From IMG/VR virus record IMGVR_UViG_3300005288_000024, positions 1 through 25,581 of that record: DNA of 25,581 bases. One strand, 5' to 3'. Source of the DNA: a virus. Positions 2,163 to 19,750 of the stretch are shown here, in pieces. Made by a program: the position numbers and the translations under genes. The notes under the pieces were generated by a model. That model worked only from the letters and a program-made list of their open reading frames with translations. It did not search any database and was not told the origin of the DNA. Each line of letters starts with the position of its first letter. The first letter of the stretch is position 1.

Positions 2163-2357
2163 GGCGCGCGAAGGCCGCCAAGGAGCTGACCGCATAAGCT
2201 AAGCGATGAAGCCGAGGTAGCACTAAGTCAATCGCGTTTTTCGAGTCTAGCTAGGCTGGCGAAGCCAGCCGAAGCGGCTCGAAACAACCGATTGATCTTA
2301 GGGCCGAGGCGAAATAAGCTAGCTGGAGCGGGTTAGCTCCTAAGGTCTTCAAGCGCC
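2163..2357 (+). ncRNA. Structured RNA element, copy 1
   Basis: This fills almost the whole gap between two late genes. It can fold as one long rod. The outer helix is GGCGC (2163-2167)/GCGCC (2353-2357), a 2x2 loop, then GAAGGCC (2170-2176)/GGTCTTC (2344-2350). The second helix is AGGAGCTGACC (2181-2191)/GGTTAGCTCCT (2331-2341). The third is GCCGAGG (2211-2217)/CCGAGGC (2304-2310) with tandem G-A mismatches. The core is CTAAGTCAATC (2223-2233)/GATTGATCTTAG (2290-2301) with one bulged T. The tip has TTCGAG (2240-2245)/CTCGAA (2278-2283) and a GGCTGGC-GAA-GCCAGCC hairpin (2254-2270). Two helices contain G-U pairs on this strand. A related copy lies at 17902-18068 on the other strand. No own promoter was seen, so it is probably made with the late mRNA. 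The class is unknown. Confidence 0.65.
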
Positions 2358-2376
2358 AATATAGGAGATAACTAAG

Positions 2377-2976
2377 ATGACTTTTGACGAAATGGTAACT
2401 GAGGTTATATCCATAACTAAGCGGCCAGATTTGCAGACAAAGATCGAAGGTAATGTACGAGCTGCTACACTTAAAGCGCACCACTCGGATTTTTATTACA
2501 GGGACTTATTTGAAGTTCCAGTCCAGTTTACTGATTTGTTTCCGTTGCAAAGTTTCCTCCCCACTGAAGTTGCTCCACTGTTTCGTAAGGTGAAGTATAT
2601 CCGGTTGTGGGTAGGAGATACTTCTGGCGATGTAGGACAATTCTTAACTCCTGTTCAAATTGAAAATTCTGTCGATGGCTATGGATATATTAAGACTAAC
2701 GTATATTACATGGCTGGGCAGTTGCTGCAATTACGGGGAGCTTGTGCGTTAGACAAAGTTTTATTCGGCTGTTATCAGCATCCAGTAATTGCACCGAGTA
2801 CAGCTTACAGTTCTTGGATTGCAGTTGATATGCCTTATGCAATTATATATGAGGCAGCTAGGGTTACATTTAAATCCATATCGTTTACTGAGCAGGCGAA
2901 TGAGTACGGCGCGCTTGTTAATGAGCAGTATGCAGAACTCAAACTATCTTATGTAGATGATGTCCCAATGACTTGA
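2377..2976 (+). CDS. Putative head-tail adaptor (connector) protein
   Basis: A 199-aa protein with AGGAG at 2363-2367. The N-terminal helical region has the form seen in podoviral adaptor proteins: a short helix, a TKRPDL-type turn, then a segment ending in HHSDFYYRDL, followed by a beta-rich middle. A C-terminal helix around residues 150-190 (YEAARVTFKS, then ALVNEQYAELKL) follows. This pattern matches gp4/gp6-type head-completion proteins that sit under the portal and join it to the tail. Its position after capsid genes and before fibre genes agrees. The role is inferred from motif resemblance and order; a tail tubular A-like protein is the main alternative. Confidence 0.65.
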   Translation: MTFDEMVTEVISITKRPDLQTKIEGNVRAATLKAHHSDFYYRDLFEVPVQFTDLFPLQSFLPTEVAPLFRKVKYIRLWVGDTSGDVGQFLTPVQIENSVDGYGYIKTNVYYMAGQLLQLRGACALDKVLFGCYQHPVIAPSTAYSSWIAVDMPYAIIYEAARVTFKSISFTEQANEYGALVNEQYAELKLSYVDDVPMT

Positions 2977-2986
2977 GGAGATTAAC

Positions 2987-3295
2987 ATGGCTATTGGAAT
3001 CTGGACACCAGTACTGCTAAGTGCTGTGCAGGTAGTGTTTCCTGACAGACTCACTATGTTTGCAAACAAGTTACAGACTACTGCACTAGCTGCTGGCACA
3101 CATATGCGATTTACTAACATGCATTGTCATCCAATTTATATTCATAGTTCAGCTCCTGCAGACGATGTAGCAGGACTGAAAGGTACTCCAATCTATGAAG
3201 AATCAGATGTAGTTCTTCCTAGAGTTTCCCCAATTTGGATTTACTCTCCTTACGATAACGCTACTGTTATTATAGATGTCGGTGCCCTCACTTAA
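2987..3295 (+). CDS. Small virion appendage protein with IWxP N-terminus
   Basis: A 102-aa protein with AGGAG at 2977-2981. It is beta-rich, without a signal peptide or membrane segment, and resembles a small jelly-roll or Ig-like accessory domain. Its N-terminus (MAIGIWTPV) has the same IWxP signature as the two fibre genes downstream at 3308 and 4479 (SSIWSP and STIWAP). This suggests that the three share an attachment element or descend from a common N-terminal module. A role as a small tail or fibre accessory protein is inferred from its neighbours; no family is recognised. Confidence 0.7.
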   Translation: MAIGIWTPVLLSAVQVVFPDRLTMFANKLQTTALAAGTHMRFTNMHCHPIYIHSSAPADDVAGLKGTPIYEESDVVLPRVSPIWIYSPYDNATVIIDVGALT

Positions 3296-3307
3296 GGATA
3301 CCTAATC

Positions 3308-4132
3308 ATGGTTGATTCAAGTATTTGGAGTCCCGGAGATATGGCAGGTCCACCAGGGCCACCTGGCCCAGCGGCTACAATCCAAGTTGGTACAGTTGTT
3401 ACAGGCGCAGCTGGCACTAACGTAGTTATTCAAAACTCAGGAACTAATAGCGCAGCTATATTTGATTTTGTAATTCCTAGAGGTGATACAGGAGTTGGAA
3501 CACAAGGACCGTCTGGCCCTCCAGGAGCTAGTGTACAAGGTCCGCAGGGTGACATAGGTCCTACTGGTTCAGCTGGTCCACAAGGTGTTGCAGGATCTAG
3601 AATAATTGGAGGATCAGGGTTTCCGTCTAATGCTGTAGGTGTTGATGGAGATTATTTCTTAGATCAATCTAATGCTTTGCTTTATGGTCCTAAGGTGTCT
3701 GGAGTTTGGTCAGGAACTTTTATTGACTTGAAAGCTGCGTTAGGTACTGCTATTCCCCTAGCCAGTGCATTTACTGGGGTGGTTGGCACATCTGGTTTAG
3801 CAGCTAGACAAGATCACGTACATCCAACACCAGCTTTTATTTACGAAGATTTCACTCCGCTTACAGGTACTGCTATCACAATTTCAGATCCTACTAGTTT
3901 TGCAGTACTGTCCCCAGCTTCAACTCTAGCCACACTAACAGTAAACCTTCCTCCAGCTTCCACTTCCTACAATGGTAAAGTAGTAGAGATATTTATCCAG
4001 AACTTTGGCATTACTACTCCAACTACTCAAGCCACTGGCTGTGTTATTCGTGGCCCACTTCCTTCACCGGCTGCAGGTGGCTACAGATTTAGATACAGAG
4101 CATCTAATACAACTTGGTATAGAGTTAACTGA
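3308..4132 (+). CDS. Collagen-like tail fibre protein
   Basis: A 274-aa fibre protein with AGGA upstream of the ATG. Residues 1-8 carry the SxIWxP tag shared with neighbouring genes. Gly-X-Y repeats follow at about residues 14-21 and again at about 59-98, with a non-collagen beta segment between them. Residues about 150-176 contain [16 protein letters not shown], a motif common in trimeric phage fibre proteins. The C-terminal 90 residues look like a small beta domain. Collagen-like stretches in phage fibres form trimeric rods, so the product is probably a trimeric host-contact or linker fibre. The receptor is unknown. Confidence 0.8.
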
Positions 4133-4141
4133 GGATTAAAT

Positions 4142-4477
4142 ATGACTCCGTCAGATAAAGCTGATGCAGTTACAGGAATAGTAACTGTAACACTTGGAGC
4201 TTTAAGTGGTTCCTTTAGTCCAGCAGACTTTCACGAATGGGGGACGACTTTTATGAGTTTGTCCCCCTTTGTACTTGTACTGTTTTTAATCTGGCGAGTT
4301 AGGTTGCTAGATACGCAACACAAAGAATGCACAGCTAATTGGGCTAAGGCGCAAGAACAACTAGTGCTAGCCTATAGGGCTATTCAGGATGTGCAAGTTA
4401 GGCGCAATCTTCCTAGCGAAGATGAATTTAAGAACGGCAATTTTTGCCTAGATAATCATACGCAAAGGGAGAGATAG
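4142..4477 (+). CDS. Single-membrane-segment protein, candidate holin or spanin
   Basis: A 111-aa protein with AGGA upstream. Residues about 10-28 are moderately hydrophobic and amphipathic; residues about 38-53 (FMSLSPFVLVLFLIW) form a strong membrane segment followed by a basic turn. The remaining 55 residues are polar and helical, like a coiled coil. The shape fits a small holin or an i-spanin-like lysis protein, and the phage has an endolysin at 9169, but this gene sits between fibre genes rather than beside the endolysin. It ends one base before the next start. The membrane segment is visible; the lysis role is inferred. Confidence 0.6.
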   Translation: MTPSDKADAVTGIVTVTLGALSGSFSPADFHEWGTTFMSLSPFVLVLFLIWRVRLLDTQHKECTANWAKAQEQLVLAYRAIQDVQVRRNLPSEDEFKNGNFCLDNHTQRER

Positions 4478-4478
4478 C

Positions 4479-6074
4479 ATGGCAGGTTCTACTATTTGGG
4501 CTCCAGTTGGAGATAAAGGTCCTACTGGAGATAAAGGTCCTACAGGCGATCAAGGGCCAGTAGGGCCTGAGGGGCCTGCAGGGCCAGGCTTAGATATATT
4601 TGTAGCAGACTTAGCTACTGCAACTAACGTTGCTAAGGGCGCAGCACTAGTCGGGTATCGTGGCCGGACAGTACACAAACGTTTGGATAATGTATTTAAC
4701 GTACTTGATTCTTACAATGGCATACCTGGTGCAGATCCTACTGGTGTGCTAGATTCGCTAGCAGCATTCAATTCTATCCGGGATTTGATTCAAACTGCCA
4801 GTGATTTCCGCGGAGGTACGATTGTAATTCCTAAGGGGGTTTATAAACTATCTGGCCCTTGGACATTCACTGCCCAAAATGGTGTACACAACATTACCAT
4901 TATTGGTTCTGGGGAATTAAGCACTACGTTGGACTTCACTACCGGCGCAGCTAACACCGACGGTATTGTATTTACTGGGGCTGGTGCGCATGTAAATGTT
5001 GGCGGGTTCATGTTGAAAAGTGCTCGGCGAGATGGCATATCAATCTCAACTTGCCATGAAGTTAGCTTACATGATTTGCGAGTACAGAATTGCCTTAGGC
5101 ACGGTATCGGATTTGATGATACATTTATGTGCAGTCTTAGCAATATCTGGTCAACGACTAACGGTGCACAAGGTATTAACTTTGCGCAGAAACATACCTC
5201 TATTACCGCTTATCGTGTATATGCTAACGATAACACAGGTAATGGGTTTAGTTTGAATGGCGTTACATACAGCTCATTTATTAGTTGTGGATCTGATAAT
5301 AACAGTAAAGGCTACACAATCTCTAACGTTCGTGGCGTAACGATGCTAGCTTGTGGATCTGAAGCTAACTTGCTTGATGGTTGGTATTTGTTCTCAAGTA
5401 ACGCATCTAAGGGCACACTACCGCTGGAATACACAAATATTTCCGGACTGGAACTTATCAGTTGTCAGGGTTATTTCAACAATACTTCCAGTCCAGGGAA
5501 CTTTGGCGCATTTGGTACAGTGCTTACAGCTGACTCTAACCCAATTCAGTTTAGTATGCGCAACTGTGGGTCAGTTCGACAGAACGTAGCAGATTTCTCT
5601 GTTATTTTCTCTGGCGCCAATGGCACTATTAACTATCGCGATGAAGATTCTAAACATGATGCACCATTCAACTATTCTGGTTCTGTGCTTCCATCAGACT
5701 TTATCCAGTCTATTGTTCCGTCGGGCGCATCTGTATCACTAGTATCTAACACGGCTAAGACTGTAACTTCCATTACATTGCCAGCTGGTGACTGGGCAGT
5801 AGATGGTACAGTTTTGTACACTCCTACAGGCTCAACAGCCGTTACTGCTTATTGGGCTGGTAATGGGTCAGCTACAAACACCATGCCTGGCGAGCAAGAT
5901 TACACATCTAATGGACAGGGCTTTACACGAACTAGTGGTACAACATTTTATATCACATCCCCAACTACACGCATCCGGTCTACTGGATCGACAGTTGTAT
6001 ATCTTATTGCACAAGCGGCCTTTACTGCATCCACTCTTGTGGCATGTGGCAAGCTAACTGCTCGTAAGGTATAA
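4479..6074 (+). CDS. Tailspike with collagen-like neck and beta-helix
   Basis: A 531-aa protein preceded by GGGAGA. The N-terminus has the STIWAP tag (residues 4-9), then about nine Gly-X-Y triplets (residues 12-38). Residues 46-77 (VAKGAALVGYRGRTVHKRLDNV) match the head-binding-to-helix linker of P22-like tailspikes. From residue 80 a GADPTGVLDSLAAFN start leads into a right-handed parallel beta-helix of pectate-lyase type with many short N/G-rich turns, to about residue 400. The last 110 residues form a beta-sandwich ending GKLTARKV, a common phage fibre end domain. It likely binds and perhaps degrades a surface polysaccharide. Catalytic residues cannot be assigned by eye. Confidence 0.85.
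   Translation: MAGSTIWAPVGDKGPTGDKGPTGDQGPVGPEGPAGPGLDIFVADLATATNVAKGAALVGYRGRTVHKRLDNVFNVLDSYNGIPGADPTGVLDSLAAFNSIRDLIQTASDFRGGTIVIPKGVYKLSGPWTFTAQNGVHNITIIGSGELSTTLDFTTGAANTDGIVFTGAGAHVNVGGFMLKSARRDGISISTCHEVSLHDLRVQNCLRHGIGFDDTFMCSLSNIWSTTNGAQGINFAQKHTSITAYRVYANDNTGNGFSLNGVTYSSFISCGSDNNSKGYTISNVRGVTMLACGSEANLLDGWYLFSSNASKGTLPLEYTNISGLELISCQGYFNNTSSPGNFGAFGTVLTADSNPIQFSMRNCGSVRQNVADFSVIFSGANGTINYRDEDSKHDAPFNYSGSVLPSDFIQSIVPSGASVSLVSNTAKTVTSITLPAGDWAVDGTVLYTPTGSTAVTAYWAGNGSATNTMPGEQDYTSNGQGFTRTSGTTFYITSPTTRIRSTGSTVVYLIAQAAFTASTLVACGKLTARKV
4509..4544 (+). repeat. Tandem 18-bp repeat coding GDKGPT
   Basis: Two adjacent copies of GGAGATAAAGGTCCTACT, differing only in the last base, encode two six-residue collagen-like units. 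A third, diverged unit (GDQGPV) follows. Such identical repeats are typical slippage or recombination points that let fibre length vary. Confidence 0.8.
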
Positions 6075-6129
6075 GGATAATTCGGCCAGGGATGGCATTT
6101 ATTTTCTGCAACCAAGAGAGTTATTTATT

Positions 6130-7728
6130 ATGGCCCAGATTCCTTATAGAGCTAATTTGCAGTCTATGTCGTTTCCACTGCTCTCAGAATTATCTGGGCG
6201 CACAATTATTAATCCACAAGCTGATAATACTTATGCCAGATTCGTATCTTCAGATGGTCAGGCTCCTGTAGATACAGGTGTACCTCAAATATTCTATTGT
6301 CATAATGTAATGCCGGCTACATATGGCTGGCAATCAGTTAGATACAATACGTATGCACCACAAGCATTTCCACCTGCCGGCCTCAATTTTCAAAATACTA
6401 GACTTATTTATGGCGCACAGGTTATATCTAGTGGTGGCGGAGAGCTAGTAATCTCTACAGGATTTAAATCTTATATCTCCATTGCCAAGGGTGGTACGGA
6501 CGGAGTTTATATTTTAGACCCAGTTAATAAGATTTGGCTACAGATTACAGTAGGGCCCAATTTGCCAGCTGATTGTGTTATGTCTGTAGCTACCATTAAC
6601 GGGGCAAGCTATATTTATTTCTCAGGTGTTGGCTGCTTCATATACAATAACAACATTGGTGGGCTAGTTGAACGAACTCTTGTTGGCCTCAGCAAGACTG
6701 ATACGCTAGGTATCGTAGCTGCTAACGGGTATCTTAATGCCTGGAACAGAACTGGAGTGGCTTGGTCTAGCACTGTGAGTGTAGAGGATTTCGTACCATC
6801 TGATGTATCTGGGGCAGGTGGTGGACAAGTACAGGAAGCTAAGGGCGAGATTGTTACAGCAGTTGCGACTCAGCTTGGCTACATTCTTTACACTAGAGAG
6901 AACGCAGTATCTGCAATCTTTTCGGGTAACGCAGAATTCCCATGGAATTTTAAAGCTATTCCAGCTTCAGGCGGTGTGTCTAGTTCTGACGTTGTGTCTC
7001 TTGAGCAAGCTCAGGGATTTCAACAAGTATATTCTACTAACGGTGTGCAGCAGATTACGCACTCTCGGTGCAATACAATTGCTCCGCACATTACAGACTT
7101 TATTGCAGGCAATACTTTTGAGGACTTTGACTCCGTAACTAATACATTTGCGTCCACCAACTTTACTTGGACAATGAGAAAGAAACTAGCTGTGGTGTCT
7201 GATAGATACGTTGTGCTTTCTTATGGCCTTGATCCAGTTGCTGATCTGACTCATGCACTTATCATTGACCTTACGCAAAATCGCATGGGCAAACTAAAGA
7301 TCCAACATACATCCTGTTTTGAACTTAGGTCGCTAGATGCAGGTGTGGTTGAAATTCCTAGAGATTCTATTGCATTCTTGCAAAAGGATGGAGCCATTAA
7401 AGTTGTGGACTTCAGCTTGTTAGAAACTGCAGATGATTCTGTTTTAATCCTAGGCAAATACCAATATGTTCGCCAAAAGATGATTGAGCTTAACCAACTT
7501 GAAATAGAAAATGTTGAGGTTGCAGATACCTTTACAGCCTACGCAATTCCAAGCCTTAATGGCAAAACATTTGGAACTCCACTGCTAGGGTATCTAATGG
7601 AAACTCAGGATAACTATAGGAAATATACTTGGGATGGGGCATTAGGTGTAAATGTATCTTGGCTATTTAAAGGCACTTTTAATATTAATGCTCTTGTAGG
7701 CTGGTTCAGTCTGGTGGGCAATCCATAG
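6130..7728 (+). CDS. Tail nozzle / P22 gp10-like stabilisation protein
   Basis: A 532-aa protein with AGAG upstream of the ATG. The bulk is regular beta structure with repeated hydrophobic strands, consistent with a beta-propeller. The segment at about residues 209-290 (WSSTVSVEDFVPS, then GAGGGQVQEAKGEIVTAVATQLGYILYT, and later FPWNFKAIPASGGVSS) is characteristic of podovirus tail nozzle or stabilisation proteins such as P22 gp10 and T7 gp12-like proteins. It would close the short tail tube below the adaptor. Start chosen at the first ATG; the 55-base gap upstream shows nothing else. Confidence is good for tail nozzle, lower for the exact subfamily. Confidence 0.75.
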   Translation: MAQIPYRANLQSMSFPLLSELSGRTIINPQADNTYARFVSSDGQAPVDTGVPQIFYCHNVMPATYGWQSVRYNTYAPQAFPPAGLNFQNTRLIYGAQVISSGGGELVISTGFKSYISIAKGGTDGVYILDPVNKIWLQITVGPNLPADCVMSVATINGASYIYFSGVGCFIYNNNIGGLVERTLVGLSKTDTLGIVAANGYLNAWNRTGVAWSSTVSVEDFVPSDVSGAGGGQVQEAKGEIVTAVATQLGYILYTRENAVSAIFSGNAEFPWNFKAIPASGGVSSSDVVSLEQAQGFQQVYSTNGVQQITHSRCNTIAPHITDFIAGNTFEDFDSVTNTFASTNFTWTMRKKLAVVSDRYVVLSYGLDPVADLTHALIIDLTQNRMGKLKIQHTSCFELRSLDAGVVEIPRDSIAFLQKDGAIKVVDFSLLETADDSVLILGKYQYVRQKMIELNQLEIENVEVADTFTAYAIPSLNGKTFGTPLLGYLMETQDNYRKYTWDGALGVNVSWLFKGTFNINALVGWFSLVGNP

Positions 7729-7741
7729 CCTAGGAGTTTGT

Positions 7742-8536
7742 ATGACGAGTATTATTGGTAGAGCCGGGTCTAGTCTGAATATGCGCTTAGGTCAGGTCCC
7801 AGATATAAAAGACCCTAATCTAAATTACGAGATGCAATTAATTTATAATTCATTGCATTTGCTAGATCAATATATGGCAGTCTTGCGAGAGAACTTAGAA
7901 TCTGCACCAGGCCAGAATCCATCAGAGAGCGTTAGATTTCGACGCAAGCTTTGGGGAGTTGCAGGTCAGGCTATTACTGTTGGAGCAGTAGTCTCTGCTC
8001 ACAATAATACTATTGTGAATGGAGTTGCAACTAACCAACCACTTCCAGTTGTGGAAGATCCGGCTGTTACCATTGGTTCTACTGGTTCGCGTCGACGCTA
8101 TAACATGATACCGGCGCAATTCTTTATAGCACTGACTGCTGCAAATCCAGGAGATTTGGTACAAGTTGGAGTAGGCCCAGGAATTATTCAAGTAACTGGG
8201 GCTAAGTGTGGACAACTTGTTTGGGCAGTTGCGGCTATATCCGTGGATAGTTACAGATCTGCAAATACTTCAACACAATTTACTACTCCAGGTACTCCAG
8301 TAAATAATGGAGGTTTATATCTAAATAATATACTAGGGACTAGAACACTAGCTGGAGGTATAATATATAATTGGGAAGGCTATTGGCTACCAGGATTTCC
8401 TGTAAATCCTGGAGGTAATTCAAGATACAGTAGAGCCTATTTATATCCTGTTGGAGTGTGCGTGTCAGACGGCTATGTTATGTTTTCTGATTACAAAAGA
8501 TCTGACCCACTGCCAGATAACATTATAGCACCTTGA
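7742..8536 (+). CDS. Virion appendage protein, paralogue A
   Basis: A 264-aa protein with AGGAG at 7732-7736. Residues 15-50 carry LGQVP, DPNL, EMQLIYNSLHLLDQYM and LR, a conserved helical N-terminal module found in several phage structural proteins. The same module is in the next gene (203 aa), so the two arose by duplication. The remainder is beta-rich, with a VRFRRKLWGVAGQAITVGAVVS stretch resembling a small capsid- or fibre-decorating fold and a variable Gly/Asn-rich insertion at about residues 175-225 that the paralogue lacks. Likely a tail-associated adhesin or decoration protein; the function is not established. Confidence 0.7.
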   Translation: MTSIIGRAGSSLNMRLGQVPDIKDPNLNYEMQLIYNSLHLLDQYMAVLRENLESAPGQNPSESVRFRRKLWGVAGQAITVGAVVSAHNNTIVNGVATNQPLPVVEDPAVTIGSTGSRRRYNMIPAQFFIALTAANPGDLVQVGVGPGIIQVTGAKCGQLVWAVAAISVDSYRSANTSTQFTTPGTPVNNGGLYLNNILGTRTLAGGIIYNWEGYWLPGFPVNPGGNSRYSRAYLYPVGVCVSDGYVMFSDYKRSDPLPDNIIAP

Positions 8537-8546
8537 GGAATGCACT

Positions 8547-9158
8547 ATGTCAAGTATTGGAGGATATAGATCACCAGTTGATTTAGGTCTTGGGCAAGTA
8601 CCACTCACAACTGACCCAGAACTCTTTACTGAGATGACTGAGGTATATAACGCAATTCATTTACTTAACCAATATCTTGACCAATTGCGAGTAGTGGCAG
8701 AGGGTGGTGGCGGGTCTGGGCAAACGCCAGCAGACTCTATGCCATTTAACAGATTCTATGTAGCTACGGCATTGCAGGATATTAAAGCTGGAGATCCAGT
8801 AAGTCCTTCGTCCGTATCGGGACAGAACGGAATTGTTAAGGGAGCACTAGCTCATGACTATACTAGTTTTGCACCGAACTCTAATTTTTGTGGAATTGCC
8901 TTGATTGATGCACTAGCTGGGGAAGATGTGCGAGTAGGCATTGGGCCAGCAGCACTTGAGTTTCCTGGGGCAGTCACTAGTCAATTGGTTTGGGTATATC
9001 CTTCTAGAGCCACTAATGGAAACTTATTTGGTGATGACACAATTAATATTGGTAATCCTGGAGCGAAAACCAATGGAGCTGGCATAGCTTATCCTATGCC
9101 AGTAGCTACATGTCCAAAGGACGGATTTATATTATTTGGTCAGTATCTAGCAAGGTAA
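8547..9158 (+). CDS. Virion appendage protein, paralogue B
   Basis: A 203-aa protein with AGGA upstream, 10 bases after the preceding gene. The N-terminal module (LGLGQVPLTTDPELFTEMTEVYNAIHLLNQYLDQLR) matches paralogue A, followed by a Gly-rich hinge (EGGGGSGQTP) and a beta-rich domain (FYVATALQDIKAGDPVS onward). It is about 60 residues shorter because it lacks the variable C-terminal insertion of paralogue A. The shared N-terminus suggests both attach to the same virion site while presenting different outer domains. No enzymatic motif is seen. Confidence 0.7.
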   Translation: MSSIGGYRSPVDLGLGQVPLTTDPELFTEMTEVYNAIHLLNQYLDQLRVVAEGGGGSGQTPADSMPFNRFYVATALQDIKAGDPVSPSSVSGQNGIVKGALAHDYTSFAPNSNFCGIALIDALAGEDVRVGIGPAALEFPGAVTSQLVWVYPSRATNGNLFGDDTINIGNPGAKTNGAGIAYPMPVATCPKDGFILFGQYLAR

Positions 9159-9168
9159 GGGGAAATAA

Positions 9169-9624
9169 ATGAGCATTGAGAATCTATCACCACACTTCAC
9201 TTATCGGGAAGCTACTTATTCAGCTACAGCTAGGGATAGGAAAATAGATAATAATCCGAATCCAGCCCAGTTAGAGGCAATGAAATATACTGCAATGAAA
9301 ATGGAAGCAGTGCGCCAGTTACTGGATGCGCGGCCACTATATATCACTAGCTGGTTTAGATCTTTTGCACTTAACGTAGCTATTAATGGTGCACAAGGTT
9401 CCCAGCATTCCAAGGGAGAAGCAGTAGATTTCAAGTGTCCAGGCTGGGGAAGCCCAGAACAAATATGCCGACACTTGCTAGCTAATAAGACTATCTTGCA
9501 ATATGATCAGCTAATTCTTGAGCCTACATGGGTGCATATATCTTTTGTTCCCCATGGCGCCAGGGGTAACGAACTAACTTGGCGAGCACCTGGGCATTAT
9601 ATGCCTGGTATTACAAAGGTCTAG
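9169..9624 (+). CDS. Endolysin, peptidase M15 family
   Basis: A 151-aa zinc peptidase of the M15 (D-Ala-D-Ala carboxypeptidase / L-Ala-D-Glu endopeptidase-like) type. The visible motifs are SWFRS (61-65), NGAQGSQHSKGEAVDF (73-88) and WVHIS (121-125). H80, D87 and H123 are the expected zinc ligands, with R64 and E118 near the active site. It should cut peptidoglycan cross-link peptides at lysis. There is no signal peptide, so release needs a holin; the only membrane candidate here is the gene at 4142. GGGGA lies 5 bases before the ATG. The length is typical for a single-domain phage endolysin of Gram-negative hosts. Confidence 0.88.
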   Translation: MSIENLSPHFTYREATYSATARDRKIDNNPNPAQLEAMKYTAMKMEAVRQLLDARPLYITSWFRSFALNVAINGAQGSQHSKGEAVDFKCPGWGSPEQICRHLLANKTILQYDQLILEPTWVHISFVPHGARGNELTWRAPGHYMPGITKV

Positions 9625-9630
9625 ATAGCT

Positions 9631-10125
9631 ATGGCAGAATTCATTTCCTTTACTGCTAAGCCCTTGATATACTACGACGATGATGCATCAGCCTTATTAG
9701 GTGGAGATTATTATCGTGTGGCAGAATCCTTTAGATACTATCTTGGTGAGAAATACGGAGATAGCTGGGTATTCGTACCAGCCGGAATGCTTACTGATCT
9801 AGCTTCTATCCCAAGGATTGTATGGAACATACTCCCTCCCAGCGGCAAGTACGGCCCCGCTGCAATTGTCCATGACAGACTTTGCAATACTTTGCAGATT
9901 ACACAATCCGGTAAGCAGGTTGCTATCACAAGGGAAAAGTGTGATGCAGTACTTGGGGAAGCTATGAAAGTTCTTCAGGTTCCGTGGGCTAAACGCATCC
10001 TCATATCAAGTGCAGTCTGCTTACATCGCTGGGTATCAAAAACTAACACTCCCGTAATTTCAGAACTCCAGCTCAAGCTTGAACGAGACTGGGTAAGAGC
10101 AATACCACCTGTATATGATAATTAG
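9631..10125 (+). CDS. DUF1353 family phage protein
   Basis: A 164-aa protein matching DUF1353. The diagnostic block is at residues 47-85: FVPAGMLTDLASIPRIVWNILPPSGKYGPAAIVHD. The family is common in phages, often beside lysis or tail genes, and its function is not known. Here it starts 6 bases after the endolysin stop, with a weak ribosome binding site (AAAGG at about 9615) inside the endolysin end, so translation may be coupled. A role in lysis or virion assembly is possible but unproven. Confidence 0.8.
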   Translation: MAEFISFTAKPLIYYDDDASALLGGDYYRVAESFRYYLGEKYGDSWVFVPAGMLTDLASIPRIVWNILPPSGKYGPAAIVHDRLCNTLQITQSGKQVAITREKCDAVLGEAMKVLQVPWAKRILISSAVCLHRWVSKTNTPVISELQLKLERDWVRAIPPVYDN

Positions 10126-10149
10126 TTAATACTGATTTGGAGAACTATC

Positions 10150-11337
10150 ATGGCAGCAGTTGACCAACTGACAGGACTTATGTCCCTGATCAATGGACTT
10201 AAAGGGTCGTCCAGCACTATTACGACTAGTGGTGGTAAGTCCACACAACAAACCAATGTATCTGATCAGGGTGTTGATCAGTTAATTAAACAAATTCTTT
10301 CTGGTTCAGGAGGTGTTAAAACTATTGGGTCTCGTGCACGCTCTAGTGGCCTATACAATTCCACTAGTGAAGATGTGCTGTTAGGCAACTTATATTCCAC
10401 AGCAGCTAATCAGGCTGAACTTGCTCGGTCTCCAACTGTAACTACCACAGCTCCTCAGACGCAAACCACTAAAGGTTCTAAGGCCAGTGTAGGTGATTTA
10501 GCTACAGGTCTTGGCGGAGCATTCTTAGCATCGCAGGCACTTAACATTGGTGCTAAGGCTTTGTCTCCAGCTGTAGACGCAGGTAGCAATTATGTAAGTG
10601 ATTTGCTTAGCGGTTTGTTTGGGAGCAATGTTGCAAGTTCGGGCGGCAGTGGTGACACTAGCACTTCTGGTAAGAAAGGTTTAGGAGATGTAGATTTTGG
10701 CGGTTATGGCGGATTTGGTGGGAACATTGCTAGCTCTGGTACTGGTATCTCAACTGGTGAAGGTTACGGTATCAATACTTCCACTCTAGGTAATTTTGGT
10801 GGGAGTTCTGCACAAGATGGCGCAGTAGGCTTGAACTTTGGTTTCGATACTGACACCGGCGGCAGTTCTGTAGGTGTAGGTGGCCTTGGAGCAATTGGCG
10901 GTTTGCTAGGTTCGATTGTTAGCGGACTTGGCGGGGGCAGTGGCGGTAGTTCTGGCGGAGGTTCCTCAGGTGGCTCTGTTATCTGTACAGCTCTTAAAGA
11001 CCAAGGCCTTCTGGACTGTGAACTGCATGCAGCCGGAGCTAAGTATCTCAATGCTATGAACCCAATCACTGTGATTGGTTATCAGGTTTGGGGGAATAAA
11101 ATTGCAGCCAGGATTCGTGACGGGCATAAGGGCTGGACTAAACTTGCTCTGCCCATTGCTACTAGTCGGACTGCCTTACTTGCTACTTCTGGCTCCTTTA
11201 TGGATCACGTTAAGCATCCGTTGGGAACCCTTACTAAATTTATTGGCGAACCTATTTGCCATGTAATTGGTGTGTTTGTTCCAGAAGGTTTGTTCATTCA
11301 AATGCTTGAGTCTTATAAACTACAGAAAGGAGTTTAA
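10150..11337 (+). CDS. Gly/Ser-rich internal virion protein
   Basis: A 395-aa protein with GGAGA before the ATG. Residues 1-105 are Ser/Thr/Gln-rich, about 110-160 are Ala/Gly-rich and mildly hydrophobic (LATGLGGAFLASQALNIGAKAL), and about 160-276 are very Gly/Ser-rich with runs such as GGGSGGSSGGGSSGGS. From residue 277 a compact domain begins (VICTALKDQGLLDCEL, then NPITVIGYQVWGNKIAARI), which I have seen at the C-termini of other phage ejection-cluster proteins. It is the first of three ejection-type genes in a row. A role in the internal core or in DNA delivery is inferred from order and composition. Confidence 0.65.
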   Translation: MAAVDQLTGLMSLINGLKGSSSTITTSGGKSTQQTNVSDQGVDQLIKQILSGSGGVKTIGSRARSSGLYNSTSEDVLLGNLYSTAANQAELARSPTVTTTAPQTQTTKGSKASVGDLATGLGGAFLASQALNIGAKALSPAVDAGSNYVSDLLSGLFGSNVASSGGSGDTSTSGKKGLGDVDFGGYGGFGGNIASSGTGISTGEGYGINTSTLGNFGGSSAQDGAVGLNFGFDTDTGGSSVGVGGLGAIGGLLGSIVSGLGGGSGGSSGGGSSGGSVICTALKDQGLLDCELHAAGAKYLNAMNPITVIGYQVWGNKIAARIRDGHKGWTKLALPIATSRTALLATSGSFMDHVKHPLGTLTKFIGEPICHVIGVFVPEGLFIQMLESYKLQKGV

Positions 11338-11339
11338 TC

Positions 11340-13058
11340 ATGGCTGGGTTTGATCTCGGAAGTATCATTAGCAGTGCTGCACAGTTATCATCGACTCAAA
11401 CCCAGCAAGCTCAAGGTATTGCGGATCTGAATAATCAGTCCGCTGCCCTGAGTCAGGAAGCTAGTGATAAGATTAGCACAGCTGGTAACTTGCAGTCTCA
11501 GGCTCAACTAGTTCAATTGCAAGGTGAACTTCAAACTCAAAAGGATCGAGTGCAAGCTGCTAATGCATTCGGTACTAACGTTGGTGACGTAAGTGATATC
11601 ATTACACAACTTGGGCAAGGCATGCGCCAATCTGCAATTCAGCTTACCGCAGCTCAAGCTAAAGTATCTGACATTGAAGCCAATAGCGATATCATTAATA
11701 ATCCGATTGGCTGGTTACGGGATCTTGTACAAGGTGATGGAGCTAGGGCTGAGCGTGATGCACTAGCACAACAGTTTGATACGCAACAGAAACTGGCGGC
11801 TGGATTAAATGCGCAAACTCAAAGTACAGTGCAAACTCAGAACGCAATCACAGAAACTCTCAGCCAAGCGAGTATTACACAAACTGCTGATGCTACCAAA
11901 TTGCTTGCAGATGCAGAAGCAAGTAAACAAGCGATTGCAGGTAAGCAATATGGCGCACAGGCAATTGAAGCATTGCGTACGAATGGTGCTCAGGAATTCA
12001 ACCGTTCTATCCAAGTCTATTCCCAGATTACGGAGGATGCTCGGTATAAGGAAGGGATGGCACTGAGGCAAGAGCAGTTCGCAGCTCTGCAAGAACAGCG
12101 TAAGCGTGGCAAGTTAGAAGATCAAGAATATGTAGATGCTACTGGTAGAGTGAATGCTTATCGTACAGCCGCAGGTATGCCAGCAGTAAATGAAACATTT
12201 GTAAGAAGGACTCTTACGCAAGGTGGAGATTTGGGTGATGACATTCGCCGGCAAGAAGCTAGCGGGATGAAACTCATGGGTGGGGAAGTTAAAGTCTTTG
12301 GTAACTCCCCGGCAGATACTATTGCAGTGCTGACTAAAGACCAGCCTAATTTGCCAGACAGCTATAAACCGGCTGTAAGTATTCTACAAGCTGCAAGTCA
12401 AGTAGCTTCAGATGAGATTGCTAAGAAGTTGCTTGTGCCTGGTAGCGAAGACTTGAAAAAGAATCCAGCAGCTAGGGCTCAGATTCTTAACGAATCTGTG
12501 ACTCAGGTAGCTAAAGGTTACCAAGCTAATATCCAAAATGATAAAGGTAATCCTTATCAAGCTCCAGCTATTAGCACTGTGCTCAGTGAAAAGAATGGCT
12601 TGGCTGAATCCAAATTTGGTAAAGTAGTTCTGGCTACACTAGTGGCAACTGAGCAAAACTATCCTACTCCTGACACGCTAATGGCATCTGGAATTGCAGC
12701 AGTAGATCGTGGAGAGTTAAGCCTGAATGATGTTCGGGATGGCGTAACTAGTTTCTATCAGAATGCTGTAGGCATTAACAACGCTACTGGCGGATATCTG
12801 CAATTGGGTGTTCCAGCGCAGCAAGGATATAAAACTAAGATTGAAGGATTCAGTCGTTCACTCTTTGATGCAGCATTTAGCTCGCTAAGTGTTATGGAAC
12901 CTGGGCTAGGTGCTAAGCAAATGCAGCAAACTAATCGCAATGAGAAAGCTGCTGCTAAGCCACTGGACATGACTAAATCTACAGATGTAACATTGGCACT
13001 CACAGTTATGCAATCCAAGAAACTTGCTGATTCAATTCTCAAGAGGGCTCCTAAATGA
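11340..13058 (+). CDS. Coiled-coil internal virion (ejection) protein
   Basis: A 572-aa protein with GGAG before the ATG, starting 2 bases after the previous stop. Residues 15-115 and 150-275 are almost continuous Ala/Gln-rich helix with heptad-like spacing, typical of podovirus internal core proteins (T7 gp15-like in character, not shown to be homologous). The C-terminal half has more mixed helical sequence and ends in basic residues. Its stop codon overlaps the start of the 1615-aa gene (ATGA), so the two products are probably made in fixed ratio. Likely role: internal core or ejected trans-envelope channel component. Confidence 0.65.
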   Translation: MAGFDLGSIISSAAQLSSTQTQQAQGIADLNNQSAALSQEASDKISTAGNLQSQAQLVQLQGELQTQKDRVQAANAFGTNVGDVSDIITQLGQGMRQSAIQLTAAQAKVSDIEANSDIINNPIGWLRDLVQGDGARAERDALAQQFDTQQKLAAGLNAQTQSTVQTQNAITETLSQASITQTADATKLLADAEASKQAIAGKQYGAQAIEALRTNGAQEFNRSIQVYSQITEDARYKEGMALRQEQFAALQEQRKRGKLEDQEYVDATGRVNAYRTAAGMPAVNETFVRRTLTQGGDLGDDIRRQEASGMKLMGGEVKVFGNSPADTIAVLTKDQPNLPDSYKPAVSILQAASQVASDEIAKKLLVPGSEDLKKNPAARAQILNESVTQVAKGYQANIQNDKGNPYQAPAISTVLSEKNGLAESKFGKVVLATLVATEQNYPTPDTLMASGIAAVDRGELSLNDVRDGVTSFYQNAVGINNATGGYLQLGVPAQQGYKTKIEGFSRSLFDAAFSSLSVMEPGLGAKQMQQTNRNEKAAAKPLDMTKSTDVTLALTVMQSKKLADSILKRAPK

Positions 13059-16000
13059 ATTTCGATGAAGCTCCTAGCTTTCTACAAGCTGCTGATGCTC
13101 ATAACGTTGCAGCGGACAATGGCTCAGTATTCGATGATATTGGTGAAGTAGTATCTAATGCTCCTAGCTTCTTGGCAGTATCCATTGCTAGCGGCTTAAA
13201 TAGTTTCTACAACACTGGCGCAGCAATTGGAAACATATTCCAGTCTGGAGAAGATGCCACACCTCAGCGAGATACTGCTGAATGGATCTCTGAATATGAC
13301 GATGATCTTGGTAAGTATTATCAGGATAATAAATCAGCAGCGGATCTTACAGGATTTATCGGCACTAGTTTGGTTCCTGGACTAGCTGGGGTTAAAGCTC
13401 TTAAGGCTGGGCAGAATGCTTTGAGAGCTGCAGCCACTGGTGAGATTGGTAGCAACATGCGATTCGCTACTAACTTACTTGCTCCAACAATGGAGACTTA
13501 TGTTAAGCGGGAAGCTGCTGATCTCGCTGGCAAGTCTGCGAGTTTTAGTTTTGCTAACACCAATGCCATTAAAGCTTTAGCGTCCGGAACTCAGCAAGGG
13601 ATTCTTGAGTCTCTGGCATTTGAGACTGCTGTGGCGGCCACTATGTTTAAGTCTCCAATTCTGGAAGACATGGACTTTGGCGATATTGTTAAGAACATTG
13701 GATTTGGGACTCTTATCGGCGGAGGCATTGGCGCTATTGGCGCCAGTGCTGGAACATACTTTGGTGTGAAGAAACTCCTAGCTAATGCTGATGCTCGCCA
13801 ACTTAATGCCGTGCGCTCCACTCAGCTTAGTTCTGCAACTGCTGAGACTTCCACAGCTGATAAGATTGTAGCAGCTTCCACTGACCGGACAATTCTAGCT
13901 CAGGAGATTACTCCAGAATCTGTGCGAGCTAAGAAGATTCTCCAAGGAGAGTCAGGTGAGTCTCTTACGGATGAGGCAATTGCAGGTGAAGTAGCTAAGT
14001 CAAATCGTTTACGTCAAGATAACTTGATGAAACTTGATAACGAGATTCGCACTGGTATTCGAAAGCTCACTGGCGATGATGCTCTTGGTAATGATTTTGC
14101 AGATATCGCAGCTAAGCTTGGGAATAAGGGAACCCAAGAAACTTTCATGAACATGAAAACTTTGACTCGTGTAGCTGAAGAGTCTAGTGTTGAAACTCGC
14201 ATTAAAAATCTGATTAAAGAAGGTTTAGCTAAGACCGTCAATCAAGCTCAGAAACAAATTACGGATGAAGGCTTTATTAATATCCGTATGCACTCTGGCC
14301 AGATTGGTGAGACTAGTGCAGGTTCAGTTGGTGTGCCTAGACTTGCTGATAAGTTTAAGCCTGAGCAGATTAAGAAGTTGGCAGCTAAGGCTCGCACTAG
14401 TGTTAACGATCGTGTAGACTTTCGTCAAGTTAAGAACGCTCGTGATGTAGAATTGCGTTGGTATAATGCTAGAACTCTCTCACTGCCATTTAATAAAAAT
14501 ACTGTGATCGGCTCACACGACTTGCCATTTATTGATAAAGCAATTCGAGATAAGGTAGAGCAGATTACAATTAGCAATGGCCCTAAAGTATTGGACCAGC
14601 AAGTCATTGTGGGCACGGATGCAATTAAAAAGCATTTTGATAAAGTTAAGGCTGAGGTAATTGAAGCTCAGAAAGGTTTGAAACATACCAGTAACTTTAT
14701 TGAACTGGCTAGCAATGTGCGTAGGGATTTCATTGAAGGGACTTCGAAACTAAAAGATCCTACGCTCAATTATAACGCACAAGAATCATATGCTCAGGAA
14801 CTTAGTCAGTTCTTAGGTAAGCCTGTTACTGCTGCTGACCTGCACCTTAAGCCACGGTTTGGCAAGGCTACATATGATACCACTAAAGTAAGTGATGAAG
14901 CTGGGCATGTGCTTGCTGGCATGGCATTGATTAAATATCGGGAGAAGATGGCAGTTGAAGCTACAGCTAAAGTATTCGCAAGTTATGTTGGAGAACTTGC
15001 TGAAACATTCCCTGCGATTAGTGAAGACTTATTGCGCTCTGCTAACCGTACTGGCGGTGGAGCTGGAACATTCACTAACGCAGGTGGAGCATATGGATCG
15101 CTAGAGCAAGCCACTAGCTACATTGGCCAACTTACTAGCGAACTCACTCGAACTAAAATCAATAAGCTGACTGAGACCATTAATCCAGTTGCAGTTAAGC
15201 TGGCTCAGAATCCTGAAGAGGCTGTACGGTTCAGTACAATTAACGAGATCATTGCTAACAGCCCTGAGAAGTATGTAGTATCAGATGCTGGCCATGCATT
15301 GATTCCCCAGAAAATTCGTGATTACCAACGAGCATTGGAAGCTGGTGAGGAAGTTGCTCCACCTGAATTGTTTAAAGGTACGGTGGAAGAGATTCCATTA
15401 ATCAATCCTAATGCTCTGGATAACACAGTTCTTAGCGATGCAGTAAATCTACACATTGCACTTAACGGTACAAGGAACCAGTCTTGGAAAGAACTCAACG
15501 CTGTGCAGGGAAACACAGATAATAAAGCATTGGATGTATTTTATCCCATTCGCCCAAACCCTCGTGACTACCGGCACATTGCCTTTGTAAAGGATGAGAC
15601 TCTGGTAGGTGTTGGGCACACTAAAATGTTGTTTGCTAACACTAGTAAGGAGCTGGAAGATCAGATTGCTAAAGTCCCTAGCGAATATAAAGTTTATACC
15701 AAAGGGCAAGCAGAAGAATTCTATAATGCTAAGGGGGAATTCATCTACGATAAGACACTGCACGATAATTATATTAATACTGATCTGCTTTCTAGGGGCA
15801 TCAGTTCGAGATTCTTTCCACAAACCGATCCTAGTAAGATTGTTAATGGCTGGCTCCAGGATCATGTTGCTAAAGAGAGCACGCTGATTAAGCAAATGGT
15901 CTTGGCTAAATATGAAAAGGAAACAAATGAACTGAAGCGGCTAGGAGATCAGTTTACTAACGTAGCAGGCAGTAAAACAGGTAAGGACTCTGTTACGGAT

Positions 16001-17902
16001 GTAGTAACATCCTCTGATAAGAACCCGTATCTGGCTCAGGTTAAGGCAATGCTAAACATCACGAAGACGGATGAGGTACCATTGCTTAACACGCTTAACC
16101 AGACTCTGGATCGTTATGCCTCTAGAGCTTGGAACAAAGCAACTGAAATCTTTGAAAGACAAGGGGGTAAATTTACTCAGGAAAAGTCTGATGAGATTAA
16201 TAATGTCTTTGAAGAGCTTGGTTTCAAGACAGCTTATTATGATGCAGCAACGAACCTTATGGCAAATAGCTCTGTGCCACGAGGGGTTCTTACTAACTTT
16301 ATTCGGAAGTCTAACGCATTTCTCACCACAACAATTCTCAGGCTTGATCCCTTTAACGCACTGAACAACTTGCTCGGGAACACTGTTTTGTTCAGTGCAG
16401 AGTTGAAAAACCTTACTGGCGCCATTAGCAAAGGAAGTGCTGACGGTGCAGGTGAGCTAGCTAAGATTATGAAGATTGGTATCCCAGGAGTTGATGGAGA
16501 TCTAATTACTAGTCCTAGTAAACTGATCAGTAATAGTTTGGCTAGATTGCACGGTGAAGGTAAGGAGGCCTTGCTATCACAGTATAAGCTCAGAGGTTTA
16601 TTGCCTGATCTTAGTGATCAGTATTATAAATCACTGGATGCTATGACACTTACCGGCAAGGAAGGTGTTCATGACATGAGCAAGAAGTCTGAGCAGCTTA
16701 GTGCAGCTTGGGAAGCATTTGGTAAAGCTGGTGAGAAGTTTACTGGTAACCGTTGGACTGAGCAATTTAACAGACTGATCTCTGCTGACGTAATGAAACA
16801 GATTACTGAAGTGGGAGTTAAGCATGGTGTGATTGATGAGAAACTTGCTTGGGCTTATGTGAATACTTTCACTAACCGAGTGAACGGGGTTATCCGTGCA
16901 GCTGAAAGGCCACTGATGTTCCAAGGTCCAGTTGGTCAGGCTATTGGTTTGTTCCAAAGTTACCAGTTTAACTTGATGCAGCAAATGTTCCGATACATTG
17001 GTGAAGGAAATGGTAAGGCAGTTGCAATGGCTGCTGGTTTGCAAGGATCTGTATATGGAGCTAGTAGCTTACCGGGATTCAATTTAATCAATAGTTCCCT
17101 GATTGGCAATGCTAATGGGAACTCTGAACATAAGGATCTATATAGTGCAACTAATACATTGTTCGGTAAGTCCGGTGCAGACTGGCTTATGTTCGGTGCG
17201 CCTAGTAATATCTTAAAAGCTAGTCTCTTTACCCGTGGCGATACCAACCCGCGTACATGGAGTATCGTACCTAATCCAACTAATCCGGGAGACATTCCGT
17301 TTATAAGTGCATTTGGTAAAGTGTTTGCAAGTACTAAGCAGAGTCTTAGTGATGTAGCTGGCGGTGCTCCTGTATGGAATAGTTTCTTAAATGGCATTGA
17401 GCACATGGGATTAAGTCGTCCACTTGCTGGCATGGCTCAGACTGCTAGAGCATTTACGAATGAAGATGGTAAGGTTACAAGTACTCAGGCTAATGGAACT
17501 ATTCTGGGAACTAATGATCTTGCTAGCTGGGCAACTATGACCAGGCTCGCTGGTGCTAAGCCCATTGATGAGGCAATTACTTCTAATGCTTATTTCAGAG
17601 TCCAAGGATATATGGCTGCTGATAGAGTTAAGCGTGAGAAGTTAGGAACTGCGCTTAAGTTAAATCTTCAGGGAGGTGGGCAAGTTGATCATGAACAGAT
17701 CGGACAGTTCGCACAGAAATATGTGGAACAAGGAGGAAGGCAGAAAGGCTTTAATAGTTGGTTTATGGAGCAGTATAAAAACACTGATAGGAGTAGAGCA
17801 GAGGCTTTAGCTAATGGACTTAGTTCTAGTTACTCCAGATACATGCAGGAAATTATGGGAGGTAGGGATAGTTTAGGACAAGATAGTGTGGATACATTCT
17901 AG
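13055..17902 (+). CDS. Giant internal virion / DNA ejection protein
   Basis: A 1615-aa protein, the last gene of the late operon. It is mostly helical and charged. Residues about 210-237 (IVKNIGFGTLIGGGIGAIGASAGTYFG) form a glycine-zipper hydrophobic segment able to insert in a membrane. Around residues 1298-1315 lies FQSYQFNLMQQMFRYIGEG, a pattern seen in C-terminal parts of large podovirus ejection proteins. I saw no RNA polymerase motifs of the N4 virion polymerase type and no clear lysozyme or transglycosylase motif. The probable role is ejection into the cell envelope ahead of the DNA. The TAG stop lies on the edge of structured element copy 2, whose outer stem starts at the last base of the stop. 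Confidence 0.75.
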   Translation: MNFDEAPSFLQAADAHNVAADNGSVFDDIGEVVSNAPSFLAVSIASGLNSFYNTGAAIGNIFQSGEDATPQRDTAEWISEYDDDLGKYYQDNKSAADLTGFIGTSLVPGLAGVKALKAGQNALRAAATGEIGSNMRFATNLLAPTMETYVKREAADLAGKSASFSFANTNAIKALASGTQQGILESLAFETAVAATMFKSPILEDMDFGDIVKNIGFGTLIGGGIGAIGASAGTYFGVKKLLANADARQLNAVRSTQLSSATAETSTADKIVAASTDRTILAQEITPESVRAKKILQGESGESLTDEAIAGEVAKSNRLRQDNLMKLDNEIRTGIRKLTGDDALGNDFADIAAKLGNKGTQETFMNMKTLTRVAEESSVETRIKNLIKEGLAKTVNQAQKQITDEGFINIRMHSGQIGETSAGSVGVPRLADKFKPEQIKKLAAKARTSVNDRVDFRQVKNARDVELRWYNARTLSLPFNKNTVIGSHDLPFIDKAIRDKVEQITISNGPKVLDQQVIVGTDAIKKHFDKVKAEVIEAQKGLKHTSNFIELASNVRRDFIEGTSKLKDPTLNYNAQESYAQELSQFLGKPVTAADLHLKPRFGKATYDTTKVSDEAGHVLAGMALIKYREKMAVEATAKVFASYVGELAETFPAISEDLLRSANRTGGGAGTFTNAGGAYGSLEQATSYIGQLTSELTRTKINKLTETINPVAVKLAQNPEEAVRFSTINEIIANSPEKYVVSDAGHALIPQKIRDYQRALEAGEEVAPPELFKGTVEEIPLINPNALDNTVLSDAVNLHIALNGTRNQSWKELNAVQGNTDNKALDVFYPIRPNPRDYRHIAFVKDETLVGVGHTKMLFANTSKELEDQIAKVPSEYKVYTKGQAEEFYNAKGEFIYDKTLHDNYINTDLLSRGISSRFFPQTDPSKIVNGWLQDHVAKESTLIKQMVLAKYEKETNELKRLGDQFTNVAGSKTGKDSVTDVVTSSDKNPYLAQVKAMLNITKTDEVPLLNTLNQTLDRYASRAWNKATEIFERQGGKFTQEKSDEINNVFEELGFKTAYYDAATNLMANSSVPRGVLTNFIRKSNAFLTTTILRLDPFNALNNLLGNTVLFSAELKNLTGAISKGSADGAGELAKIMKIGIPGVDGDLITSPSKLISNSLARLHGEGKEALLSQYKLRGLLPDLSDQYYKSLDAMTLTGKEGVHDMSKKSEQLSAAWEAFGKAGEKFTGNRWTEQFNRLISADVMKQITEVGVKHGVIDEKLAWAYVNTFTNRVNGVIRAAERPLMFQGPVGQAIGLFQSYQFNLMQQMFRYIGEGNGKAVAMAAGLQGSVYGASSLPGFNLINSSLIGNANGNSEHKDLYSATNTLFGKSGADWLMFGAPSNILKASLFTRGDTNPRTWSIVPNPTNPGDIPFISAFGKVFASTKQSLSDVAGGAPVWNSFLNGIEHMGLSRPLAGMAQTARAFTNEDGKVTSTQANGTILGTNDLASWATMTRLAGAKPIDEAITSNAYFRVQGYMAADRVKREKLGTALKLNLQGGGQVDHEQIGQFAQKYVEQGGRQKGFNSWFMEQYKNTDRSRAEALANGLSSSYSRYMQEIMGGRDSLGQDSVDTF

Positions 17903-18068
17903 GCGCTACAGTCCCTACCCAGCGTAGCCGCTGAGCTAGCTTACCACAACCGGGCCCTAAGATCAATCAGCCACTCGGCCTTCGGCCTCGCTAGGCATGA
18001 TTGACTTAGTGCTATCCCGGTTGCGACGCTACGCTCCATCGGCAGCTGGGTAACGGGCCTTCCGCGCC
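17902..18068 (-). ncRNA. Structured RNA element, copy 2
   Basis: Read on the minus strand from 18068, this repeats the order of copy 1: GGCGCG then GAAGGCC; the blocks TAGCACTAAGTCAATC (18014-17999) and GATTGATCTTAGGGCC (17968-17953), identical to copy 1; TAAGCTAGCT (17943-17934) at the same 9-base spacing; and a closing GCGCC (17906-17902). Helices: GGCGC/GCGCC; TTACCCAGC (18053-18045)/GCTGGGTAG (17923-17915) with one G-U; AACCGGG (18022-18016)/CCCGGTT (17954-17948); the bulged core helix; and a GGCC-GAA-GGCC tip (17987-17977). Flanking helices differ in sequence from copy 1 but still pair. The G-U is a C-A mismatch on the plus strand, favouring minus-strand RNA. The element lies in a 260-base gap between convergent operons. 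Confidence 0.62.
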
Positions 18069-18118: not shown

Positions 18119-18159
18119 AAAAATGCCCCAGCTAGGAAACTAGACTGGGGCTTTCTTTT
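18119..18159. terminator. Bidirectional intrinsic terminator between operons
   Basis: GCCCCAG-CTAG (18125-18135) pairs with CTAG-A-CTGGGGC (18140-18151) around a GAAA loop, with one bulged A. On the plus strand TTTCTTTT follows (18152-18159), ending the late operon. On the minus strand the hairpin is followed by A then TTTTT (18123-18119), ending the replication operon just after its last gene stops at 18163. Confidence 0.85.
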
Positions 18160-18785: not shown

Positions 18786-19163
18786 CTAGTGCTTGTAGTC
18801 AGATTGCATAATGATTCTGGACTCTTGTCTTAGCCCAGTTTCGCCAGTGTTAACACGGTTGTTAACAATCACACTTCTCCTTTCCTCAAGTTTCTCTCTA
18901 ATGATATTGCATACATTGCAGAGAGATTCGTGCGAGTAGATTCCATCCATTAAGATACCAACCTCAGCAGCTAGGAATCCAATAGCTTGCTCAAAGTTTT
19001 GAATCAATGCCTGATCTGTGTCTTCATCCATGGTGAATAGAGTAGCGTGAGCATTAGCTCCATCTAGCTCAGCCTGTTTCATTCTAGCAAATAGCTTAGG
19101 GTGATTAGGAATTTCCTGAACCATATTAATGATTCGCTGGTCTAGCATTACGATCTGGACCAT
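18786..19163 (-). CDS. Hypothetical early protein with CxxC motif
   Basis: A 125-aa protein, helical and acidic in the middle, with a CNVC motif around residue 87. I recognise no family. An upstream TTG at 19187 gives a longer frame, but the ATG at 19163 overlaps the exonuclease stop as TAATG and has AGAGG upstream, so translational coupling from this ATG is more likely. The single CxxC is not enough to claim a zinc site. It is part of the tightly packed replication operon. Confidence 0.65.
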   Translation of the reverse strand: MVQIVMLDQRIINMVQEIPNHPKLFARMKQAELDGANAHATLFTMDEDTDQALIQNFEQAIGFLAAEVGILMDGIYSHESLCNVCNIIREKLEERRSVIVNNRVNTGETGLRQESRIIMQSDYKH

Positions 19164-19750
19164 TAGGCAAATAACCTCTGATACCAAGAAGACTTATCAA
19201 CAATAGCATTGAATTGCTTTGCTGCCCAGATTGCATCAGCTAAAGCTGTATGCGCTGCTTCGTCCTGGCCACCTTTGATACGTGCCCCAGGATTAAGAAA
19301 CAATAGATCTCGTGTACAATGAAAGTTCCGGTAACTGTAAGCAGTCTTTTCAATTCCGCTAGTTTTGAATAGATAGCCAAGAATGGTTTGGTCAAAGTCT
19401 TTACCCTGTGCCCACATATGTAGCTCAGCATTAGCTGCGAATCCACTGAGCCATGTATGGAATTCGTGAGCCGCTTCCTGAAATGATACGCCTAGTTCTT
19501 CACACTTATCTAGATAACCTGGATTCTGTTTCTCATGCCATTCTAGTGTGTCAGCATCAATCTCAAATGGAGTGCCAACATAACTGGATGGTTTAATATA
19601 GAGCTGAAATTGGCAAGGCTCAAACTTACCCATTGCCATTACGGCACCAATGTCCACGACTGCTGCCTTGGAATCTAGTGCCAGTGTTTCAGTATCTACT
19701 ACAATATTGACTTTAGCTTTATAAGTTTTAACTGGGGTTGTGCTAGCCAT
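19163..19750 (-). CDS. DEDDh 3'-5' exonuclease
   Basis: A 195-aa exonuclease of the DnaQ/RNase T superfamily. The four acidic residues and histidine of the DEDDh class are visible: D19 and E21 in VVDTET, D118 in the GKDFD segment, H167 and D172 in AAHTALADA. The spacing and the DIGAVMA and DADTLEWHEKQ segments resemble the Rv2179c-like exoribonuclease group (DUF5051) common in phages. It may trim or degrade nucleic acid, for example host RNA or DNA ends; the substrate cannot be told from sequence. The start overlaps the preceding stop (TGATG). The polymerase in this operon has its own exonuclease domain, so this is a separate activity. Confidence 0.85.
   Translation of the reverse strand: MASTTPVKTYKAKVNIVVDTETLALDSKAAVVDIGAVMAMGKFEPCQFQLYIKPSSYVGTPFEIDADTLEWHEKQNPGYLDKCEELGVSFQEAAHEFHTWLSGFAANAELHMWAQGKDFDQTILGYLFKTSGIEKTAYSYRNFHCTRDLLFLNPGARIKGGQDEAAHTALADAIWAAKQFNAIVDKSSWYQRLFA

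Follow-up and report, generated by a model that had tools for sequence, protein, structure and literature searches.

The window, that is, the whole stretch of DNA analysed here, comprises positions 1–25581 of a 38,072-base (38-kb) virus record (G000). The record is incomplete and about 7 kb shorter than those of its relatives. It encodes a podovirus gene set that includes a capsid protein (PHROG 1328), tail fibres, a primase and a DNA polymerase, with the late operon on the plus strand and the early operon on the minus strand. Based on the capsid protein, its closest cultured phages, at no more than 39% identity, are Aeromonas phage P5, Polaromonas phage Tiera and the PaP2/PaMx41 group (Fredfastierviridae); the nearest classified cultured relative found is Jamesmcgillvirus PaMx41 (Fredfastierviridae). 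Several of its genes have features of their own. DNA repeats in the tail-fibre genes (window 3532–4549) suggest collagen-like Gly-X-Y repeats, and an early gene (window 19163–19750, minus) carries an Rv2179c-like 3'-5' exoribonuclease domain (E 7e-22), making its product a candidate phage RNA-processing enzyme. A Dda-like helicase is encoded in two overlapping frames (L041 6005–6376 and 6249–7814; record 31005–32814, minus), with a UvrD_C_2 domain shared across both, pointing to a frameshift that is either programmed or an assembly error. Similarly, an AAA_24 ATPase domain is spread over adjacent ORFs (window 25140–25559 and L041 573–944, i.e. record 25573–25944, minus), which suggests a frameshift or a split gene.

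The window contains two copies, c1 and c2, of a strongly folded element in opposite orientation, with the following features:

2163–2357, plus: copy c1 of the predicted rod RNA (fold z −9.76; covariance-model match 152 bits)
2163–2167, plus: 5' strand of the base helix, GGCGC (partner 2353–2357; covariation in 5/5 pairs of this helix 1)
2218–2233, plus: core strand of c1, TAGCACTAAGTCAATC, containing the family's nearly invariant UCAA
2290–2305, plus: core partner of c1, GATTGATCTTAGGGCC, with one bulged U and the nearly invariant UUGA
2315–2324, plus: TAAGCTAGCT of c1, with an unpaired UAA adjoining a paired GCU
2363–2367, plus: Shine-Dalgarno-like AGGAG of the 199-aa gene, 5 bases past the c1 rod
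17902–18068, minus: copy c2 of the predicted rod RNA (fold z −6.75; covariance-model match 176 bits)
17999–18014, minus: core strand of c2, TAGCACTAAGTCAATC
17953–17968, minus: core partner of c2, GATTGATCTTAGGGCC
17934–17943, minus: TAAGCTAGCT of c2
18119–18151, minus: terminator-like hairpin with a T-run, closing the early operon about 50 bases ahead of c2

Copy c1 fills the gap between a 159-aa gene, which follows the capsid gene and ends at 2151, and the 199-aa gene, which starts at 2377. Copy c2 is located at the convergent end of the early (minus) and late (plus) operons and overlaps the stop of a 1615-aa gene (13055–17902) by one base. Each copy is predicted to fold into one unbranched rod (−107.7 kcal/mol for c1 and −94.4 kcal/mol for c2), and none of 200 shuffles of either was as good. 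The initial annotation had described the pair as a duplicated structured RNA with exactly shared blocks, and c1 and c2 are indeed homologous. All shared blocks lie on the strands and at the positions listed above, with TAAGCTAGCT nine bases beyond GATTGATCTTAGGGCC in both copies, and both copies start with GGCGCG and end with GCGCC. The folds also show the proposed helix of identical blocks with its single bulge, the bulged base being a U, and the strand named for each copy beats its complement by 17 (c1) and 12.5 kcal/mol (c2).

The element is more than a simple duplication: there are up to four copies per genome, and the family is wider than the source phage. A pattern scan yielded a third homologue (L001), and a covariance model built on three sequences (R1) detected eleven elements in three phages (G000, G001 and G002). 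A second model (R2), trained on these eleven, matched elements outside its training set (L107 in G043, 8e-19; L121, 2e-10; L149/L152, 9e-8; L173, 2e-6), as did R3 for elements absent from its own (L191/G045, 3e-12; L027, 1e-6), these E-values being rough given the short calibration. Further R2 members include L073/L067, L171, L132, two sites in G041, L183, L162 and L130, and weak R3 matches were obtained for L120 and G030. Three covariance-model rounds bring the family to about 25 distinct members, not counting the two weak ones. They are carried by about 16 phages, all uncultured podoviruses; 16 of the 46 records searched are positive.

Within the G000–G002 lineage, the sites are fixed. All three phages carry c1, c2 and a further site, p, which in G000 lies beyond the window (35113–35316, plus). 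G001 and G002 each have four copies, placed at four matching sites, the fourth (ter) being located between terS and terL, and the ter site of G000 probably falls off the end of the incomplete record. Site p is antisense within the early operon and adjoins a 334–350-aa gene that, by size and place, looks orthologous across the three phages. Orthologues of c1 occupy the same gene junction in G001, G002 and G045, the capsid fragment of the latter being 73% identical to that of G041. The c2 site is also occupied in G001, G002 and G041. The terminator upstream of c2 is kept in G001 and G002; in G041, the element comes first, past the last early gene, and the terminator after, with no downstream gene.

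Phages beyond these three typically carry one copy, including G070 and G071, relatives of full genome length. Most members are found in the terminase–portal–capsid part of the late operon, at junctions that differ in the more distant phages: between terL and the portal gene (G041, G042, G070, G063, G051, G053 and G024), after the portal gene (G048, G071, G075 and G068), between terS and terL (G043 and G030) or after the capsid genes (G045). Every late copy is in the sense orientation relative to the late genes, and most lie no more than about 30 nt past a stop codon and 14–52 nt ahead of the next start codon; at the c1 and ter sites of the G000–G002 lineage, the start codon follows 14–19 nt beyond the rod. 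The sites are stable, as the outer stems of c1 are 79–86% alike across the three phages. The core of c1 in G000 matches c2-type cores at 76–78%, compared with 57–66% for other c1 cores, which suggests that cores may have been exchanged between copies.

The family consensus is an unbranched rod of about 150–200 nt. Its nearly invariant elements are UCAA/UUGA in the bulge-bearing helix, CCG/CGG and AGC/GCU, together with unpaired A positions close to the rod base, and the three bases of the unpaired UAA before GCU are conserved at 100, 96 and 87%. C(GNA)G apical triloops are present in about 17 of the 25 members. Such triloops are typical of very stable single-stranded DNA (mini)hairpins and would be odd in an RNA. 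A kissing pair between the apical CUAGC and a GCUAGC strand was also considered and dropped, as it fails in L072 and L073.

A MAFFT alignment (A2) misplaced the outer stems, and model-fitted alignments were therefore used instead. In alignment A4 (11 members), 87.6% of cells pair, compared with 27–45% when slid, two-sided changes affect 40 of 58 pairs and none of 500 shuffles reaches any measure, while A7 (23 members) gives 85% against at most 44%, two-sided changes in 52/58 pairs and a covariation score of 0.498 against at most 0.114 when slid, pair counts in both being biased towards the model structure to which they were fitted. The finding of members outside the training sets is independent of alignment fitting and thus provides support free of this bias. 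Homologues with compensatory changes in related phages, whose absence would have refuted the initial annotation, are accordingly present, the homologues coming from about 16 phage contigs.

The same data identify a preferred strand. In all 23 members, the homologous strand gives a more stable fold than its complement, and DNA energy parameters likewise favour the named strand in 13/13 cases (the first 13 members). Cells with G-U outnumber those with A-C by 33:11 in an earlier set (p 0.001) and by 69:35 among the 23 members, where 17 rows show the excess versus 1 with the opposite. This bias includes p and c2, both of which are antisense to their neighbours. Strand tests identify the selected strand and do not, alone, tell RNA and single-stranded DNA apart; what favours RNA is the consistent sense orientation of the late copies relative to the late genes, and that no linked DNA-processing partner emerged. 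Specifically, a scan of early and flanking G000 proteins, which covered part of the genome, turned up none of four families: HUH, transposase, reverse transcriptase and phage RNA polymerase. A linked transposase or HUH protein would be expected of a mobile palindromic element of the REP/MITE type.

In line with the earlier statement that the element belongs to no known RNA class, Rfam 15 (4227 families, including ribozymes and phage ncRNAs) gave no match at the gathering score for the window and 10 further member loci, and a permissive search returned only noise. A tRNA or tmRNA identity was rejected, none being found, and so was an N4-type virion RNA polymerase promoter hairpin: the 1615-aa late protein shows no T7-like polymerase motifs, and no polymerase family bearing on this idea was found among the scanned proteins. 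A model search detected no member in the cultured relatives Tiera, P5, PaMx41 and EBPR podovirus 3, and DNA similarity searches of cultured phages with c1, c2 and one distant member gave short chance matches or none. In 84,980 bacterial and archaeal genomes, the pattern scan produced six matches, none backed by the model; the viral pattern matches L068, L070, L071, L074, L075 and L077–L079 were discarded as chance. A literature search retrieved no account of this rod-RNA family.

Two of the cultured phages contain structures of their own. In PaMx41, a late intergenic gap past the portal region (L082 7073–7249) harbours a rod of about 150 nt that folds strongly; this rod shows no sequence match to the family and is possibly an analogue. 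In EBPR podovirus 3, a late intergenic gap (L083 9382–9551) holds a near-perfect long palindrome containing GCGGCCGC.

Given the lack of matches in Rfam and in the checked cultured relatives, together with the compensatory changes and the strand evidence, we conclude that the element represents a new structured nucleic-acid family, most likely of RNA. That it is real, new and strand-specific is hardly in doubt, and there is good reason to predict that the molecule is RNA. As judged from the sequences, the rod RNA almost certainly has some function, since many paired mutations have left its base pairing intact.

Regarding this function, we tentatively favour, at somewhat less than even confidence, a noncoding RNA that acts in trans via a partner. 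This preference follows from three observations: the neighbouring gene differs between phages, copies p and c2 cannot lead their neighbours, and the core is conserved in sequence. As the junction varies from terS/terL and terL/portal to sites after the portal or capsid genes, no single gene can be the cis target. The single copies in G070 and G071, the position of p antisense to early genes and the c2 copy of G041, which has no gene to control, likewise speak for trans action. The RNA would be made within the late mRNA and then either be released by processing or work in place, with c2, where the early operon ends, and p, on the antisense strand of that operon, as additional sources. Recognition of the UCAA/UUGA helix with its adjacent bulge, of CCG/CGG and of the unpaired UAA beside GCU would fall to a partner, probably a protein, and the remainder of the rod would position these core elements. 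Such a partner may take part in virion assembly or may be a factor of the host that the RNA sequesters. A more specific version, possible yet more speculative, is a new class of phage ncRNAs that work in trans both early and late, each genome keeping as many as four copies distributed over the two strands; their sequence-specific protein partner would act in head assembly or belong to the host.

What counts against trans action is, first, that the rod at late sites fills the gap between stop codon and Shine-Dalgarno sequence, which would also fit a role in cis. The element could then be a generic intercistronic module of the mRNA that undergoes cleavage (by RNase III, for instance), stabilises mRNA ends or isolates the translation of the late neighbours. 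The placement of most late rods (no more than about 30 nt past the stop codon and 14–52 nt before the start) and the filling of a similar gap at differing junctions are consistent with such a module, and long imperfect rods are natural substrates of double-strand nucleases. However, p is antisense to its neighbours, no gene lies downstream of c2 in G041, and a double-strand nuclease has no need of nearly invariant UCAA/UUGA pairs or an unpaired UAA; we consider a cis-acting element rather unlikely.

The C(GNA)G triloops also count against an RNA acting in trans, as does the search of the upstream regions, which revealed no clear sigma-70 promoter; a TATACT motif 9 bases upstream of c2 is only suggestive. 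The triloops would instead fit a hairpin that the named strand forms as single-stranded DNA and that serves replication, packaging or mobility, as would the preference of DNA parameters for that strand, the orientation of c2 opposite to the other three copies, the differing junctions, which dispersal would yield, and the c1 core that looks swapped with c2-type cores. We regard a DNA hairpin as improbable, because the four families named above were not found among the early and flanking genes scanned, the sites and c1 outer stems are stable across the three phages, and the invariable sense orientation of the late copies is expected of RNA. A packaging or head-machinery RNA with a role like that of phi29 pRNA is very unlikely: the stretch from terS to the capsid genes holds most members, whose size is close to that of phi29 pRNA, but these phages encode small and large terminase genes, many relatives lack the element, and the rod is unbranched, with no sequence or Rfam link.

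The favoured trans-acting RNA resembles known phage systems only in part. Like phi29 pRNA, the rod is phage-encoded, structured, of similar length and associated with packaging genes, but it lacks the branched junction fold of pRNA and occurs in up to four copies, in phages with terS and terL. The RNase III sites of the T7 early region are likewise imperfect intercistronic stems within phage mRNA; they are about one third as long as the rod, which differs further in its conserved sequence core and in its copies outside mRNA junctions. The put antitermination RNAs of HK022 also occur in more than one structured copy per phage genome, but are short, consist of two hairpins and lie near early promoters, whereas the rods are mainly found deep within the late operon. 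Families such as GOLLD and skipping-rope similarly emerged by comparative genomics from phage or environmental DNA with their function not known; the rod family differs from these in matching none of the 4227 Rfam families, in being unbranched and in its multiple copies per genome.

For tailed phages outside the model systems, few noncoding RNAs are known, and few are so well backed comparatively, the support here being covariation at more than 50 pairs together with a core that hardly varies. The family supplies a ready covariance model for searching metatranscriptomes and allows a clear test between a trans-acting RNA, an mRNA module and a DNA hairpin. For the phages themselves, maintaining several fixed-site copies over the two strands of a compact genome implies a real cost and a real benefit.
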